Below are positions 980-8,024 of a stretch of DNA of 56,423 bases, piece after piece; within the stretch, counting starts at the first letter, position 1; each line of letters opens with the position of its first letter. The notes under the pieces were generated by a model. The model was not told where the DNA came from and did no database searches. It saw only the letters and a list, made by a program, of their open reading frames with translations. Source of the stretch: Mariprofundus sp. (GTDB taxonomy: Bacteria > Pseudomonadota > Zetaproteobacteria > Mariprofundales > Mariprofundaceae); NCBI GenBank assembly GCA_021772775.1, contig JAJFLH010000030.1, forward strand, positions 1 through 56,423. Direction: 5' to 3'. Both the position numbers and the translations under genes were made by a program.

Positions 980-1476
980 GTTGTGACTTGGCTTCAGGCA
1001 TCCGTTAGATACAATCACCGCCCATATCAAGACATAACCACATAGGTTGTGACTTGGCTTCAGGCATCCGTTAGATACAATTCCCTCATCGTTTCCAAAA
1101 CAATACGACAGGTTGTGACTTGGCTTCAGGCATCCGTTAGATACAATTAGCTGGTGATCAGCTTCACCGGCTGCGATGTTGTGACTTGGCTTCAGGCATC
1201 CGTTAGATACAATGTTGTCAATCTCGAACTTTTCACCAGTGAGTTGTGACTTGGCTTCAGGCATCCGTTAGATACAATCGTATTACCCCACTCAATGGAA
1301 GCCATTTTGTTGTGACTTGGCTTCAGGCATCCGTTAGATACAATGCAGCATTCATAATGGTGACGTCATAGCCCGTTGTGACTTGGCTTCAGGCATCCGT
1401 TAGATACAATATCCGAGATGTTGTTTGACTCTTTAATTGTGTTGTGACTTGGCTTCAGGCATCCGTTAGATACAAT
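980..1476 (+). CRISPR. Type II-C CRISPR array, 8 repeats and 7 spacers
   Basis: Eight identical 36-bp repeats start at 980, 1046, 1112, 1178, 1243, 1309, 1375 and 1441. Each begins GTTGTGACTTGGCTTC and ends CGTTAGATACAAT. Six spacers are 30 bp and one (1214-1242) is 29 bp. The GTTGT...ACAAT ends match the Neisseria-type II-C repeat, which fixes the crRNA sense as the plus strand. Each repeat ends in TACAAT, a good -10 box, with TTGGCT 16 bp upstream as a -35-like hexamer, so each spacer could have its own start site as known in Neisseria meningitidis. No repeat is degenerate, so the array shows no decay at either end. Spacer origins cannot be read without a search. Confidence 0.97.
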
Positions 1477-1538: not shown

Positions 1539-1877
1539 CTAAAACATCTCAATTTGCGCAGGCCCCTGCTCTGTTTTTTTACGTCGTTTGCCATAAAACA
1601 CCTCCATTCTTCCAAATTGTTTATCTGTAATCTGGATCAACCGTACTTCACCATCTGGAGGCAATGATTTTTTCACACGTTCAAAATGCACAACTGCATT
1701 CTCTTCACTGGCACAATGTCGAATGTAGACAGAATATTGCATCATACCAAAACCATCCTTTAAAAGCATTTTGCGAAACTGTGTATAATGCTTACGTGCA
1801 GCCTTGGTATCGGTGGGTAGATCAAACATCGCGACAATCCACACCGAACGGAATCCTCCAAAAACCGTAATGGTCAA
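1539..1877 (-). CDS. cas2: CRISPR-associated endoribonuclease/integration subunit Cas2
   Basis: A 112-residue Cas2 with the first-strand motif VWIVAMFDLPT (Asp19 is the conserved metal-site position), followed by ARKHYTQFRKMLLKDGF and MMQYSVYIRHC, typical of type II Cas2. Cas2 dimers bridge two Cas1 dimers in the spacer integration complex. The start codon overlaps the cas1 stop (ATGA), and the gene ends 19 bp from the terminator of the convergent array. The residues before the first strand (MTITVFGGFRS) are longer than usual, but the overlap with cas1 supports this start. Together with cas1 and cas9, and with no csn2 or cas4, it defines a II-C locus. Confidence 0.95.
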   Translation of the reverse strand: MTITVFGGFRSVWIVAMFDLPTDTKAARKHYTQFRKMLLKDGFGMMQYSVYIRHCASEENAVVHFERVKKSLPPDGEVRLIQITDKQFGRMEVFYGKRRKKTEQGPAQIEMF

Positions 1878-2764
1878 GAATCAAATGCTGGAATCAGCAG
1901 ACATGGATCTTCCCCTGCCAATGATCGCAGTAGATTGGCCGATAAGAGATGCAATGCATTCATCAATGGACGACTTTCCCCTGACAAAAACACATCCTGA
2001 GACAGTACACCCAGCAATGCCTGTTTAATCTCAGGCGTCATGCTGTTTTCTCCCGCTTGCCAATGCTTACAAACTTCCCAGTCAATTAACGGCCGAAATG
2101 GCTCCATCACATCATCAGCAAGCGGATATGCGTTGTAGCGGTTATGGTGATGTAACCCGAAGGATGGGTGCATCCCTCCTCCACATAAAGCGCGGGCAAC
2201 AGCGGCCCTGAGCACCGTATAACCATAGTTAAGCATACCATTGGGAGGCAAACCATCGCGCCTGCGCCGGAAGTCTGGGCCAAACAGCGATTTCCAGTAG
2301 CGGGCAGCAGCCTGTGCCTCGTGGTTTTCCGTATCACCCGACTTCACCTTCTCAGCCAGAAAGCGAAGCCCCTCACCACCCTCTTTTTCACACTGATCCA
2401 GACACCATGCCTGATTCCTTATCTTGGCCTGTACAACCTGTTTCCAGAGTCTTTTCTTTGTCGGCACTTTAGCTGCCACCTGCACGCGAAACCGTTCGGA
2501 CTGCAGTGAGTTAGTATCTAATGGCAATAGCAGACCATTGGGATGATGATTCTTACCACAGATCACCACAGCCACATTGTTTGCCAACAATTCATTCAGT
2601 GCCGCATGACTGTAGGTACAACCAGGATGATCGACAATAAGCACCCCCATATCCTCAATGGGAACTGAGCCAACCACTTCACCTTCACGTTTTAATATCA
2701 GCTGCTTATTTTTCACTGAGAGATATACAGGTGCAGTGGATATTTCGATAATGCGCTTAATCAT
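1874..2764 (-). CDS. cas1: CRISPR-associated integrase Cas1
   Basis: A 296-residue type II Cas1. The N-terminal beta domain covers about residues 1-85 (MIKRIIEISTAPVYLSVKN, with VLIVDHPGCTYSHAAL). The C-terminal helical catalytic domain shows the expected metal ligands: Glu149 in HEAQAAARYW, the His cluster 205-207 in LHHHNRYNAYPLADD, and Glu221 in MEPFRP. It catalyses integration of new spacers at the leader-proximal repeat as a complex with Cas2. Its start lies 8 bp inside the cas9 gene and its stop overlaps the cas2 start, so the three genes form one coupled operon. Confidence 0.97.
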   Translation of the reverse strand: MIKRIIEISTAPVYLSVKNKQLILKREGEVVGSVPIEDMGVLIVDHPGCTYSHAALNELLANNVAVVICGKNHHPNGLLLPLDTNSLQSERFRVQVAAKVPTKKRLWKQVVQAKIRNQAWCLDQCEKEGGEGLRFLAEKVKSGDTENHEAQAAARYWKSLFGPDFRRRRDGLPPNGMLNYGYTVLRAAVARALCGGGMHPSFGLHHHNRYNAYPLADDVMEPFRPLIDWEVCKHWQAGENSMTPEIKQALLGVLSQDVFLSGESRPLMNALHLLSANLLRSLAGEDPCLLIPAFDS

Positions 2765-5700
2765 TGGAAGGGTAGATGCGCCCTAACGGATCAACAACAA
2801 TTTTTTGCCCTTTAAATGTATTTGGGTACGCCGATAAAAGGGTAGATTTATCACTGATATTCGCAGCAGTATGTTTACGTAAAAAAATTTGAGTTGCCGC
2901 ATTCATCTTCTGCACCCTGTACACTTCAAATGCATCTTCACCTGCTGGGACTTTCACCAGTTCATTGATTGAAAGAGACATTACAAAACGTTGACCTTCT
3001 TCCAGTTTCCGCTGAATCACAGACTCACCACGCCTTGCCCGCTGTGCCGCTTCAAACATTGAAACCACTACGCCACCGCGTTTTTGATTACCTTTTTTAT
3101 CCTCATATTCATAGATAACCATGTGATGATTACTGCCCTCTTGAACACCTCGATAAGGATGTTTCTGCCTATTCTTCAACATGCGCATTTTGGAAAACGG
3201 TTTATGTAAACGAACCCGCTTGATCGGTTGACCCGTTGCCATAAGAGGCGGATTGGCTTCAGCCTCTTTGAGGGCCTTCTTCACATCTGCCGAATCTTTA
3301 GGATCAAACCCTTTACTCAATACATACGAACAAATAGCGGCTCGAATCCTTTCATCACCAATTTGTGTGATCTCTTTGTGCGAAAGTGTTGATACAGGCT
3401 TCCTAACAGCATACATCTTTTGTTGTTTCTTATCTGTGAACTTCAATGCACCATAGGCTGTTTCTTCGTGAAGTGCGCCACGGATTTTGCGCATCACCCT
3501 GTGTGAAATAACGATTGATTGAATCTCTTCTTCAACATCATGTCGGAAGCTATCCCAAGGCACGGGAAACTGCTCAATGCTCAATTTGTCTAATCGACCA
3601 TATTTACTGGCAGCACTCATCGCCTTCAAAGCTTTTGGAGTCGAAAGCGCTGTAACTACAGCATCAACGGCATGGTGGCGATGGTCTTCGCGGGTCTTTT
3701 CCCCCGAATCATGCAATATTTTATTTAACCCCCATAAATGCCGCAAAGTTGAAGTCATCTGCCCTTTCCCTACCTGCACATGGTATTTGCCTACCAACTG
3801 TTCCAGATAGGCTGAAACTTCACGACTGATATAACGGGTATCATTAAGCTGGCGTTCAATAAATGAATTCAGATCAATGCTTTTCTGCCGGAACTTATTG
3901 AATTTCTTATAACCAAACTGGCCTGAAAACTTACGTACCCGCGCTAGCATGGTATGAAACCGATCTTTATCGGCATGATAAGCCTCATATGGTGTCTGAT
4001 TACCTTTGATTTTATTTTCTGAGCTGAAACACAAGGTTTTATTGATATATGAATCATCCAAAGTGCGCGAATAGGGTAGAATATGCTCAATCTCAATTTC
4101 AGATGAAAACAGCATGGCTGCTGAAATCGTTTGATTGGTATAAGGACAAGTGTGGTTGCACTCTTCCCATAAACGATACTTTATCACGTCATCACGAGAT
4201 GGATGGGCAATGCCATACTCCTTTTCCAGACGAGTGCGGATTTCTTCATTCCGTTTACGGTTCTTTTTATTCTGGAAACTTGCTTCTTTGCGCTGTTTGG
4301 CTGAAGTCTTTAAATCACGCGCCATTTCAATACGGATTCTTGCAGGTTTCCCATATTCCCGAACAATCGCATTGACCACCTTACGCACTTCATACAATGC
4401 TTTTTGCACAATCGGATTGCGCAGCTGCGGCGGCTCACCAAGTTGCGACACAATTGTATCATCCATCTGGTCACGCCGCTGATACCCGGCGGCTTCAACA
4501 GCATCTGAATATTTCAAACCCTGTTCCAAATATGGCAAGAGCTTCTTTATCGCTTTTTGAGAAAGGTGAAAATAACTGTCTTCTAGTTTGATAGCCATGA
4601 CTTTCGCTGTGCTCTCATCATCCAAACCTAATAATTTGCAGTGACGATGAATGATGGCGTCCTCTTCAATGAACAACAGGTCATGGATAAGAGCATCACG
4701 CTGCTCCAGCGACAATATGTCATACTTCTTTTTCAACACACTGCGTAATGAGTATTCCGTGGCATTACCCTTGAGTTTATCCCGTCCTCCTTCCTCTATA
4801 TTGAAACGGATATGTTCCCACGGATCGTCACCTTTGCTAAAAAGAAGTTTGCGGATAGCGCTGAAGTTCATTGTTTTCTTTCGCTGTAGTGCATTAATTA
4901 ACTTATCACGCAAATCCAAGTCTTCCGAAAGCTGCCACTCGTTATCTCCATCAATCACCTTCAGGTTATTGATTTCCGATAACATACGAAATTGCTGGGC
5001 ATACCATGAGCCTTTCGAACTGCGCTTCTTACCTGACCAGACCAACTCCCCTTCTCTTCCTATCACTTGTCGCTTCTCAAATTCACACAAACCAATAAGG
5101 AATTTCTGCACTTTCAAGGGGCGTTGATAGAAGGAGATATTATGAATACTTTTCTTTAGTTCATCGGTAAGAACGTCTGGGTAAAATGTGGCCTGCCTGC
5201 TCCAGAGCAGTTCAAACTCATTTTCATACATCGAGCGTTTGGTATACCTGCATCTAATGCGCTGTTCGCGCGGATCAATTGATGCCAGATATTCACCAAG
5301 GGTGCGACATTCACTGTCATCTATCTGCTGTTGCAGTTCAGAAAGAGCCGTTGCAACTTTACCATCGCTCTCTCCAGCCTTTCGGTTACTCTTAAAGCCT
5401 CGCCGTTGATTGATGTGATAAAATACTCGCCCCAGTTCATGTAAAGATAATTTCTCGTCTAATCCCCTGGCACGTAAATCATACGGATTGAGCTTCATAA
5501 CTGTCTCTGCTGCTTCAGGCGATTTGGGGAACAATCCAGTCTGTTCAAGCAGATTTCTTAAAATATAGCGTCGCTGATTACGTCTCTTGTGAAGCTTGCG
5601 TGCGCCGCGAGCAGCCCTGCGTTGAGCATTCTTTGACAGTTCAGCCCCCGTAGTTGAGCGATCAACTCCTTCCTGAAATATACGGACACCTGCATCAATT

Positions 5701-5795
5701 ATATCAGTAAAATCGTTTCCTGTTTCCGTTTTCGATTCCAATAGCGCCCAGCCAATAGAGTTGCTGCCTAAGTCCAACCCAAGAATTTTTGCCAT
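2757..5795 (-). CDS. cas9: Type II-C RNA-guided DNA endonuclease Cas9 (compact, 1012 aa)
   Basis: An intact 1012-residue Cas9, in the small II-C size class. RuvC-I is at residues 1-20 with Asp8 in LGLDLGSNSIGWA. The arginine-rich bridge helix is at about 55-80. RuvC-II is at IRIEMARDLK (Glu490). HNH is at about 540-605 with EIEHILPYS (His571) and SSENKIKGNQ (Asn594), preceded by CNHTC, a possible zinc knuckle. RuvC-III is at HHAVDA (His708, Asp711). The C-terminal about 290 residues hold the wedge and PAM-interacting region. All nuclease residues are present, so an active enzyme is expected. The ATG is preceded by GGAGGGG. The gene is first in cas9-cas1-cas2 and divergent from the tracrRNA. 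The PAM cannot be read from the sequence. Confidence 0.97.
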   Translation of the reverse strand: MAKILGLDLGSNSIGWALLESKTETGNDFTDIIDAGVRIFQEGVDRSTTGAELSKNAQRRAARGARKLHKRRNQRRYILRNLLEQTGLFPKSPEAAETVMKLNPYDLRARGLDEKLSLHELGRVFYHINQRRGFKSNRKAGESDGKVATALSELQQQIDDSECRTLGEYLASIDPREQRIRCRYTKRSMYENEFELLWSRQATFYPDVLTDELKKSIHNISFYQRPLKVQKFLIGLCEFEKRQVIGREGELVWSGKKRSSKGSWYAQQFRMLSEINNLKVIDGDNEWQLSEDLDLRDKLINALQRKKTMNFSAIRKLLFSKGDDPWEHIRFNIEEGGRDKLKGNATEYSLRSVLKKKYDILSLEQRDALIHDLLFIEEDAIIHRHCKLLGLDDESTAKVMAIKLEDSYFHLSQKAIKKLLPYLEQGLKYSDAVEAAGYQRRDQMDDTIVSQLGEPPQLRNPIVQKALYEVRKVVNAIVREYGKPARIRIEMARDLKTSAKQRKEASFQNKKNRKRNEEIRTRLEKEYGIAHPSRDDVIKYRLWEECNHTCPYTNQTISAAMLFSSEIEIEHILPYSRTLDDSYINKTLCFSSENKIKGNQTPYEAYHADKDRFHTMLARVRKFSGQFGYKKFNKFRQKSIDLNSFIERQLNDTRYISREVSAYLEQLVGKYHVQVGKGQMTSTLRHLWGLNKILHDSGEKTREDHRHHAVDAVVTALSTPKALKAMSAASKYGRLDKLSIEQFPVPWDSFRHDVEEEIQSIVISHRVMRKIRGALHEETAYGALKFTDKKQQKMYAVRKPVSTLSHKEITQIGDERIRAAICSYVLSKGFDPKDSADVKKALKEAEANPPLMATGQPIKRVRLHKPFSKMRMLKNRQKHPYRGVQEGSNHHMVIYEYEDKKGNQKRGGVVVSMFEAAQRARRGESVIQRKLEEGQRFVMSLSINELVKVPAGEDAFEVYRVQKMNAATQIFLRKHTAANISDKSTLLSAYPNTFKGQKIVVDPLGRIYPSND

Positions 5796-5815
5796 CTACC
5801 CCTCCAAACTAATCA

Positions 5816-5845
5816 TTGCTATTTTCACTACTTTTGAAATATAGT
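5816..5845 (+). promoter_or_regulatory. Putative tracrRNA promoter
   Basis: TTGCTA (5816-5821) and TATAGT (5840-5845) are 18 bp apart on the plus strand. The predicted start falls at about 5852, the first base of the anti-repeat. The element lies in the short gap upstream of cas9, inside the predicted cas9 mRNA leader on the other strand. Confidence 0.6.
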
Positions 5846-5851
5846 TCTTCC

Positions 5852-5857
5852 ATTGTA
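5852..5857 (-). promoter_or_regulatory. Putative -10 box for the cas operon inside the anti-repeat
   Basis: On the minus strand the 5' end of the anti-repeat reads GATACAAT, the same TACAAT -10 box found at the end of every CRISPR repeat, pointing at cas9 about 55 bp away. No good -35 hexamer is visible on this copy, so its strength is uncertain. Confidence 0.4.
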
Positions 5858-5943
5858 TCTAACGGATGCCTCGAAGTCTTTTCATAACAAGAGAAATCGC
5901 AGGCAATGCTCGTTTTGATTCACATCTTCTCGAGTAACCTATC

Positions 5944-5967
5944 GCCCCCGGAAACGGGGGCTTTTTT
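5944..5967 (+). terminator. Intrinsic terminator of the tracrRNA
   Basis: GCCCCCG (5944-5950), GAAA loop, CGGGGGC (5955-5961), followed by six T residues. This is a perfect 7-bp GC stem, and it also serves as the terminal hairpin of the tracrRNA. Confidence 0.93.
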
Positions 5968-5978
5968 ATTCGACACCC

Positions 5979-6035
5979 ACAACATTTGGGATCAGCTCTC
6001 GTTTCGCGCATCAAACACCCAGCTCCACTGTGATT
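5979..6035 (-). repeat. Direct repeat copy A with a decayed nuclease-gene 3' end
   Basis: The segment CAACATTTGGG...CAGCTCTC...TTTC.CGCAT recurs at 6669-6700. On the minus strand, copy A reads codons for I-T-V-E-L-G-V-stop just upstream of this block. The nuclease gene at 6699-7670 ends I-T-V-E-L-V-T-stop just upstream of copy B. Most codon differences in the shared I-T-V-E-L are synonymous, so A looks like the tail of a diverged second copy of that gene. Confidence 0.6.
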
Positions 6036-6036
6036 G

Positions 6037-6065
6037 AGTTCCGGGGACATATTATTTAACTCACC
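6037..6065 (-). repeat. Right arm of inverted sequence bounding the TA-CRISPR block
   Basis: The minus strand begins GGTGA and ends ATGTCCCCGGAACT. It is the partner of 151-183, which has the same ends in the opposite orientation. ATGTCCCCGGAAC-like strings are often seen beside REP-associated transposases in proteobacteria (recollection, not searched). No transposase is present here. Confidence 0.5.
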
Positions 6066-6067
6066 AT

Positions 6068-6613
6068 TCACATCATCCATCCCCCCCCCTCTCCTTCTTT
6101 TGCACCATGCACAAAACCGATGGGCCGTTTCTTGGTCTCTGGCGGCTCCATTAATTCTCGAATGGCATCAAAAACAACTGCAAACTGTTTGTCGTATTTC
6201 AGTTCAATTTTTTGAAGCCTGCGCGCCAAAGCTTTGTGATCGGCGGTCATCTGCCGTAGCTCCACAAAGGTGCGCATGATCTCAATATTTACCTGTACCG
6301 CCTGTTTACTTCTGAGAACACTGGAAAGCATTGCCACGCCCTGTTCAGTGAAGGCATAGGGAGGCGTTCTGCGTCCGCCCCTTCCCTTTGAGGTCACAAA
6401 TTGTGACCTCAAACGTTTGAATTCATCACTACTCAGCTGAAACATGAAATCTTCCGGGAATCGATTAATATTACGTTTCACTGCCTGTATCAGCACCTTG
6501 GTTTCCACGCCATAGAGTTCTGCCAGATCGGCATCCAGCATCACCCTCTCCTTTCGCATAAGAAGGATGGAGCGTTGAATTCTCTGCATGGGAATCAGGC
6601 CATCCCCACTCAA
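6068..6613 (-). CDS. ORF6N-domain (KilA-N-like) DNA-binding protein
   Basis: A 181-residue protein with an ORF6N domain over about residues 9-100: [30 protein letters not shown], then [18 protein letters not shown] and NIEIMRTF. This domain is common in phage and accessory-region proteins and is thought to bind DNA. A helical, charged tail (about 105-155) may form a coiled coil, and the C-terminus is glycine-rich. The start is a TTG at 6613 with AAAGGG 7 nt upstream. The internal ATG at residue 9 has poorer spacing. The gene sits between direct repeats (5979-6035 and 6669-6720), next to the tracrRNA terminator, so it is probably a later insertion. Its target and any link to CRISPR are unknown. 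Confidence 0.8.
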
Positions 6614-7970: not shown

Positions 7971-8024
7971 CATCGAAGCGCACCATGCTACAGCATGCAT
8001 ACATCATTTCATCATCAATATTGA
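7971..8024 (+). repeat. 54-bp direct repeat, copy 2
   Basis: It starts CATCGAAGCGCACCAT and ends CATCATCAATATTGA. Its 3' end continues into a long palindrome (8005-8034) that copy 1 lacks. Confidence 0.75.

Follow-up and report, generated by a model that had tools for sequence, protein, structure and literature searches.

The locus described here, from an iron-oxidizing marine bacterium, raises the question from where a type II-C CRISPR-Cas system transcribes its tracrRNA and its cas operon, and whether one short segment in front of cas9 can serve both. The initial annotation had proposed face-to-face overlapping promoters, with an anti-repeat that kept the promoter of the repeat for cas9, and with RNA polymerase at one promoter blocking the other, which would balance protein and guide levels. 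The window, i.e., the whole stretch of 56,423 nucleotides that was analyzed, is contig 23 of a 3.12-Mb genome, and the nearest named relatives of its CRISPR locus are Mariprofundaceae genomes. The array and the cas operon comprise the following elements:

980 to 1476, plus strand: CRISPR array with 8 identical 36-nt repeats, from the sequence
1539 to 1877, minus strand: cas2, from an open reading frame and a family match
1874 to 2764, minus strand: cas1, from an open reading frame and a family match
2757 to 5795, minus strand: cas9, 1012 amino acids, TIGR01865
5799 to 5805, minus strand: probable cas9 ribosome-binding site GGAGGGG, from the sequence

From the array to cas9, the open reading frames on the cas strand are cas2, cas1, and cas9; csn2 and cas4 were looked for in the window and were absent. 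From the sequence, the array is predicted to read opposite to the cas operon, with a -10-like box in each repeat, as is characteristic of type II-C. With Cas9 accompanied by cas1 and cas2 only, the locus is of type II-C. Its Cas9 scored 163.9 bits with the Cas9d model, below the cut-off of 375. Each array repeat contains TTGGCT-16-TACAAT with a predicted start 7 nt past the repeat end, and this repeat promoter ranked within the top 0.014% of window positions with a sigma70 matrix. The promoter matrices used throughout are rough, and their scores serve to rank sites only. The arrangement resembles the II-C systems of C. jejuni and N. meningitidis, in which crRNA promoters reside in the repeats, with cas9-cas1-cas2, an array opposite to cas9, a -10 box ending the repeats, and a tracrRNA. 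C. jejuni repeats end in GGTAAAAT, resembling an extended -10 (PMC3656092), whereas the window repeat has G at -14 but A at -15, plus the -35-like TTGGCT. The metagenomic II-C system EH CRISPR-Cas9 shares the order cas9-cas1-cas2-array, and its tracrRNA, too, is predicted in front of cas9, equipped with a separate promoter and a terminator; the available part of that report discusses no cas9 start from the anti-repeat (PMC10281378).

Inverted repeats of 23 nt (87%) of the TTCCGGGGACATA type are found at 161-183 and 6037-6059. They enclose a unit of 5.9 kb with a Phd/ParE-type toxin-antitoxin pair (287-890), the array, the cas genes, and the tracrRNA. Genome-wide, allowing up to 2 mismatches, this motif occurs in the two window copies and once on contig C2, and the exact motif was found in none of the loci fetched from other genomes. 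The inverted repeats are possibly the borders of a mobile cassette.

Upstream of cas9, the plus strand carries the tracrRNA gene and its promoter:

5816 to 5821, plus strand: tracrRNA promoter -35, TTGCTA, with TTGC invariant in five Mariprofundaceae loci
5840 to 5845, plus strand: tracrRNA promoter -10, TATAGT, 18 nt past the -35, from sequence scan and conservation
5852 to 5888, plus strand: anti-repeat, a full-length repeat copy in the opposite orientation, perfect over its first 20 nt
5852 to 5967, plus strand: tracrRNA gene with predicted start at 5852, from anti-repeat, promoter, and terminator; expression predicted
5944 to 5961, plus strand: intrinsic terminator of the tracrRNA, followed by T6, from the sequence

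Anti-repeat, promoter, and terminator, which together mark a tracrRNA gene, were all found in the sequence. The computed repeat:tracrRNA duplex reaches -50.4 kcal/mol with pairing along the whole repeat, interrupted by one bulged base and, across from repeat positions 8-10, by a 3x3 internal loop. Six nucleotides (TCTTCC) separate TATAGT from A5852, the first base of the anti-repeat and predicted plus-strand +1. A consensus scan of 5700-6100 yielded 2 promoter-like sites, both on the plus strand (0.5 +/- 0.6 in shuffles), and none on the minus strand. With the sigma70 matrix, the plus-strand promoter was within the top 0.03% of window positions.

Five Mariprofundaceae loci were compared, namely the window and L024, L025, L026, and L036. 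Their Cas9 proteins are 75% (L024) and 73% (L025) identical to that of the window over the full length, and 69% (L026) and 63% (L036) over partial genes. All four relatives have TTGCNN-18-TANNNT-6-ATTGTATCT, as does the window, so that 5/5 loci share TTGC, a spacer of 18 nt, and a gap of 6 nt; T-12, A-11, and T-7 of the tracrRNA -10 are invariant, and its middle bases vary. From the start codon of cas9 up to the anti-repeat, all five loci agree in TTGC, in the three -10 bases T, A, and T, and in eight isolated positions (alignment columns T8, C10, C12, C13, A22, A23, C42, and C61), while most columns that separate the promoter elements from the cas9 ATG vary. The tracrRNA promoter TTGCTA-18-TATAGT of the initial annotation, with its start at the first base of the anti-repeat (predicted +1 at 5852), was conserved in this way in all five loci, and we regard a sigma70-type promoter starting the tracrRNA at this base as very highly probable.

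On the opposite strand, three elements face cas9:

5857 to 5852, minus strand: cas9-facing -10-like box TACAAT of the repeat type, with G at -14 (5859)
5874 to 5880, minus strand: -35 place for this box, AGACTT (16-nt spacer) or, at the better spacing of 17, AAGACT
5845, minus strand: predicted cas9-operon start, an A opposite T-7 of the tracrRNA -10, inferred from spacing

The box is the end of the repeat copy within the anti-repeat, and the repeat-type -10 is intact there. A -10 of this type aimed at cas9 with a predicted +1 at 5845 was recovered as first described, and of the wider claim that the anti-repeat kept the promoter of the repeat one half stood: the TACAAT -10 was kept, the TTGGCT -35 was lost, and AGACTT or AAGACT stands in its place. 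The other strand of the anti-repeat would therefore offer the repeat -10 (TACAAT, G at -14) without a -35. A transcript from 5845 would have a leader of 50 nt to the cas9 ATG (5795). The rough scores were 9.1 for the tracrRNA side versus 6.6 for the cas9-facing box, which was within the top 0.28% of window positions with the sigma70 matrix. By arithmetic, such a score is expected about 0.5 times among 170 scanned positions, so the score alone is within chance. Conservation across the five loci is the stronger evidence for both predicted boxes. In the aligned stretch 5790-5975, which reaches from the cas9 start past the tracrRNA terminator, the only TANNNT common to the five loci are 5840-5845 on the plus and 5857 to 5852 on the minus strand. 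TACAAT was present in 5/5 loci, 55-60 nt from the cas9 ATG. With this matrix it was the top cas9-sense candidate in 4/5 Mariprofundaceae loci, one of these (L024) with a tie, and in a scoring of 58 loci it was the top candidate in the window, L024, and L025; in L026, the leader site TATGCT outscores it (7.2 versus 6.6). In the lineage of the window, the box is the best single cas9-promoter candidate, with roughly even odds. That it serves as cas9 start is a tentative prediction, which we hold at slightly less than even probability.

The strongest competing explanation, itself somewhat short of an even chance, sees the box as a relic of pairing, with cas9 transcribed from another weak promoter in the leader or by read-through across the tracrRNA gene. 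Pairing with the repeat suffices to conserve the box, and its conservation is confounded for this reason. Indeed, the whole 20-nt anti-repeat segment containing the box is conserved; a single base varies, in L025, 4 nt upstream of the box, and has a matching change in the L025 repeat, the outcome expected from pairing alone. Read-through is compatible with the window, as a gene running in the direction of cas9 has its end at 6068 and no minus-strand terminator was detected by the consensus scan of 5700-6100. Against a relic, no second cas9-sense TANNNT is common to the five Mariprofundaceae loci within the aligned interval, and the alternative TATATT/TATAAT at 5843 to 5838 is missing from L024 and L025. 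An ORF6N/Rha-like gene (6068-6613) was observed directly upstream of cas9 in the same direction, a possible source of read-through.

If the box is active, the bare -10 would act as a weak start of the cas9 operon at about 5845, and both promoters would form a bidirectional promoter, with the start base pair of either one at the -7 of the other. The predicted starts at 5852 (plus) and 5845 (minus) lie 7 bp apart; the promoter elements face each other and the RNAs diverge. A5852 is +1 of the plus and -7 of the minus promoter, and 5845 is -7 of the plus and +1 of the minus promoter, which bears out the opposed, overlapping elements proposed at the outset, with -10/+1 positions shared reciprocally. 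Such starts, 7-25 bp apart with overlap of -10 and +1, define the bidirectional promoters of Warman, Grainger and colleagues, whose usual form has starts 18 bp apart and one shared -10 (PMC10268837). Unlike this form, the window has two -10 boxes, predicted starts 7 bp apart, and a tracrRNA as one of the RNAs. Its control region would belong to the 7-25-bp class if the minus-strand start is real, the class resting on mapped starts and the window on predicted ones. A link of a tracrRNA locus to cas expression is also known from the autorepression of type II-A cas operons by tracr-L, a longer RNA guiding Cas9 to Pcas (PMC11417352); unlike tracr-L, the window tracrRNA has its predicted start at the anti-repeat and would be without a 5' leader. 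Taken as a whole, a divergent tracrRNA/cas9 control region with the box as weak cas9 start is the best explanation of the sequence, to which we give a little under an even chance of being right.

Two polymerases could not occupy both promoters together, and with each start at the -10 of the other, physical exclusion would result if both promoters fire. Abundant tracrRNA and modest cas9 expression are expected from the better elements on the tracrRNA side, and the scores of the two sides make a dampening of cas9 by the tracrRNA promoter the likely direction. In E. coli, none of the five bidirectional promoters tested was basally active enough for the two directions to compete, and a substantial rise in one direction repressed the other (PMC12825309). 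These published tests argue against balancing at basal activity. We doubt that occlusion is physiologically relevant, and the active balancing of guide and Cas9 by polymerase competition, as initially proposed, is unsupported. The box could also fire only as a pervasive by-product of many bacterial promoters, without contributing to the dosage of cas9. Divergent starts at distances of 7-25 bp are frequent at promoters of E. coli and Salmonella (PMC12825309, PMC10268837). The divergent RNA of the window would, however, be the mRNA of the sole effector, whose leader and ribosome-binding site are usable, and we consider a mere by-product improbable.

Type II-C loci were also surveyed. Sources were 397 genomes of the phylum of the window, which we take to be Pseudomonadota, 37 of them with a Cas9 match, as well as 369 genomes of one class (27 matches) and 386 of another (57 matches), with partly overlapping genomes; Cas9 loci from the genome collection were also taken. 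Loci were classed as II-C by Cas9 match and array direction, with cas9 starts assigned by script. Of the fetched regions, 7/34 and 21/70 gave no array. A repeat was available for 85 loci and a usable cas9-facing anti-repeat copy for 64, comprising 62 from the phylum of the window, L029 (Nitrospirae MAG), and L075 (Bacteroidota MAG). The 21 loci left out had a weak anti-repeat (15), the best match on the other strand (3), or a short repeat (3). L027 did not enter, as its repeat consensus was truncated, nor did L026 and L036, for which an array was not detected; the L024 repeat is a single copy. Part-model Cas9 matches were left out (G030:C129, G444:C51, G637, G471, G892, G825:C104, G1061 twice, G1058, and G769), as were plasmid Cas9s, with E up to 1e-100 and all <60% identical. 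The viral contigs scanned contained no Cas9 relative.

Repeats ended in TANNNT in 59/64 usable loci. Over the 64 repeat ends, T was found at -12 in 63, A at -11 in 63, T at -7 in 59, and G at -14 in 53, with -10 variable, a pattern that marks a -10 box. At the appropriate distance, a -35-like element scored 1.83 on average versus -0.17 in shuffles. Bacteroidetes-type repeats lacked the TANNNT ending. In C. jejuni, every spacer has a mapped start site and every repeat a -10 box (PMC3656092), and repeat-borne promoters are stated for type II-C (PMC12080349). Our survey extends the C. jejuni mapping over many genera. The best tracrRNA -10 ended 4-8 nt before the anti-repeat in 28/63 loci (chance 5 of 31 scanned places; p ~1e-7), and a predicted tracrRNA start at the anti-repeat edge is accordingly common. 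Spacers integrate at repeat ends, and TANNNT there could be an integration signal with no promoter in repeats or anti-repeat. II-C arrays acquire at the last repeat (PMC12080349), and a promoter was not detected in the repeats of Riemerella (PMC5006608), which like the Bacteroidetes-type ending would suit such a signal, but the mark is one-stranded (57/62 repeat ends versus 2/62 at the mirrored place), 0/300 shuffles reach the score of the rightly spaced -35-like element, and C. jejuni starts map inside spacers (PMC3656092), so that this reading is very improbable.

The anti-repeat copies differ from their repeats in a defined pattern. Internally, differences peak at positions 8-10 (34, 35, and 33 of 63) and fall to 0-8 of 63 copies at positions 16-28. 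Copy ends also differ often, with 54, 33, 31, and 36 of 63 at positions 1-4, at which local alignments frequently end, and 31 at position 36. Positions 8-10 overlap the start of the -35; in the window, TTGGCT is repeat positions 9-14. TTG stood at the -35 place in 26/62 repeats versus 2/62 copies. The -35 score of the copies was at shuffle level (185/300 shuffles reach it), and was below that of the repeat in 49/63 loci and equal in 7. The internal duplex loop thus appears to cost the copy its -35. As a pattern predicted from sequence, repeats carrying a -35/-10 pair and anti-repeat copies without the -35 are general in the 64 usable II-C loci.

The fate of the -10 varied, with the box intact in, e.g., L029, L133, and L214 and broken in, e.g., L113, L118, and L139. 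The box was intact in 23/64 copies (16 with the sequence of the repeat, 7 with other middle bases) and broken in 19/64, at T-7 in 15, T-12 in 3, and both in 1; in three of the 15 (L128, L163, and L168), this T is already missing from the repeat. In 6/64 the box end was lost and TA kept, in 15/64 the tail was lost, and 1/64 (L130) was unreadable. As the box is not intact in 41/64 usable loci, it is not a general cas9 promoter, and cas9 must start otherwise in most surveyed loci, which favors the pairing relic. So does the finding that the best cas9-sense candidate lies in the leader in 25/58 loci versus 12.9 expected by position count, and that the box, without a -35, is the best candidate in only 5/58. 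In the Neisseria-type L113, unlike the window, the anti-repeat box is 110 nt from cas9 and broken at T-12 (GACAAT), with TTGTAT-18-TATATT present in the leader; the N. meningitidis cas9 promoter is drawn with its own -35 and -10 (PMC13431127).

By repeat cluster (33 in total), the box was intact throughout in 12, in none of the loci in 18, and mixed in 3. The repeat-similarity cluster of the window (75%, loci within 220 nt) had it in 6/6. Within the Cas9 clade of the window, picked post hoc, 11/13 usable loci kept the box versus 12/51 elsewhere. Among loci with a Cas9 about 38-43% identical, the anti-repeat tail was lost in L027, L028, L031, and L032, the box was broken in L147 and L149, and L030 gave a weak anti-repeat match only. 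With the clade widened by L147, L027, L028, and L030-L032, retention was 11/19 versus 12/50 (Fisher p = 0.011, kinship ignored). As judged from sequence, the box is mostly retained in the Cas9 clade of the window. Retention was not significantly related to the distance from the ATG, counted by hand and leaving out L130 (12/26 intact at 55-72 nt versus 11/37 elsewhere, p = 0.20), nor to a tracrRNA -10 at 4-8 nt (13/23 intact-box loci versus 15/40 others, p = 0.19).

Protection of promoter-critical bases in the copies was considered and rejected, as the A-11 signal is weak and T-7 behaves oppositely. A-11 differs in 8/63 copies versus 18 at -12 and 16 at -10 (6, 16, and 17, respectively, with alignment mapping), and one locus per cluster gave p = 0.13 and 0.04 for this contrast. 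T-7 differs in 31/63 copies, the most of any position beyond 10; it was kept despite changed -9/-8 in 7/15 (p = 0.08), confounded by its pairing with the tracrRNA +1 A. L147 as a possible control, with a broken-box copy directed away from cas9, was also discarded: its true anti-repeat, located 417-450 nt upstream of cas9, points toward cas9, and the box in it is broken (TACAGA, by eye). Beside it, 288-323 nt upstream of cas9, lies a lone near-perfect CRISPR repeat on the other strand. A genome match of 5804-5832 on contig C3 overlaps an apparent coding-gene start (by eye) and was dismissed as coincidence.

Further arrangements were observed. In 11/40 loci without intact box (L127, L131, L136, L140, L176, L179, L184, L185, L190, L203, and L209; some scores weak), the best tracrRNA -10 lies within the place of the last repeat bases (offset -3 to -6), and the tracrRNA promoter may have taken over the anti-repeat end there. 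In L115-L119, L146, and L150, the anti-repeat copy ends 7-30 nt before the script-set cas9 ATG, a spacing at which part of the tracrRNA promoter would fall into the coding sequence of cas9, and a cas9 promoter, if any, would lie within the anti-repeat or beyond it. In L028, in front of cas9 at 8001, the tracrRNA 5' end contains AGACAAGACT...AGTCTTGTCT (by eye); self-folding of this anti-repeat, as self-inhibition or a guide-like form, is possible.

The transcription of cas9 is described in few of the type II-C species we met, e.g., N. meningitidis (PMC13431127). A literature search, with subscription journals mostly outside its scope, retrieved no statement of a -35-loss rule or of an anti-repeat cas9 promoter in the text available. 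The comparison yields a testable rule: repeats carry -35 and -10, copies lack the -35, and survival of the -10 varies by lineage. Should cas9 start from the opposite strand of the anti-repeat, a single short segment would combine the tracrRNA 5' end, the tracrRNA start, and the cas9 promoter, and the level of cas9 would be tied to that of the guide by sequence. More broadly, the loop of the crRNA:tracrRNA duplex might strip the -35 and leave a bare -10 at cas9, which some lineages, that of the window included, kept as a weak start locked to the tracrRNA promoter and others broke, often at T-7 or T-12. We regard this as rather unlikely; if true, the structure of the guide RNA would set the wiring of cas9 expression.
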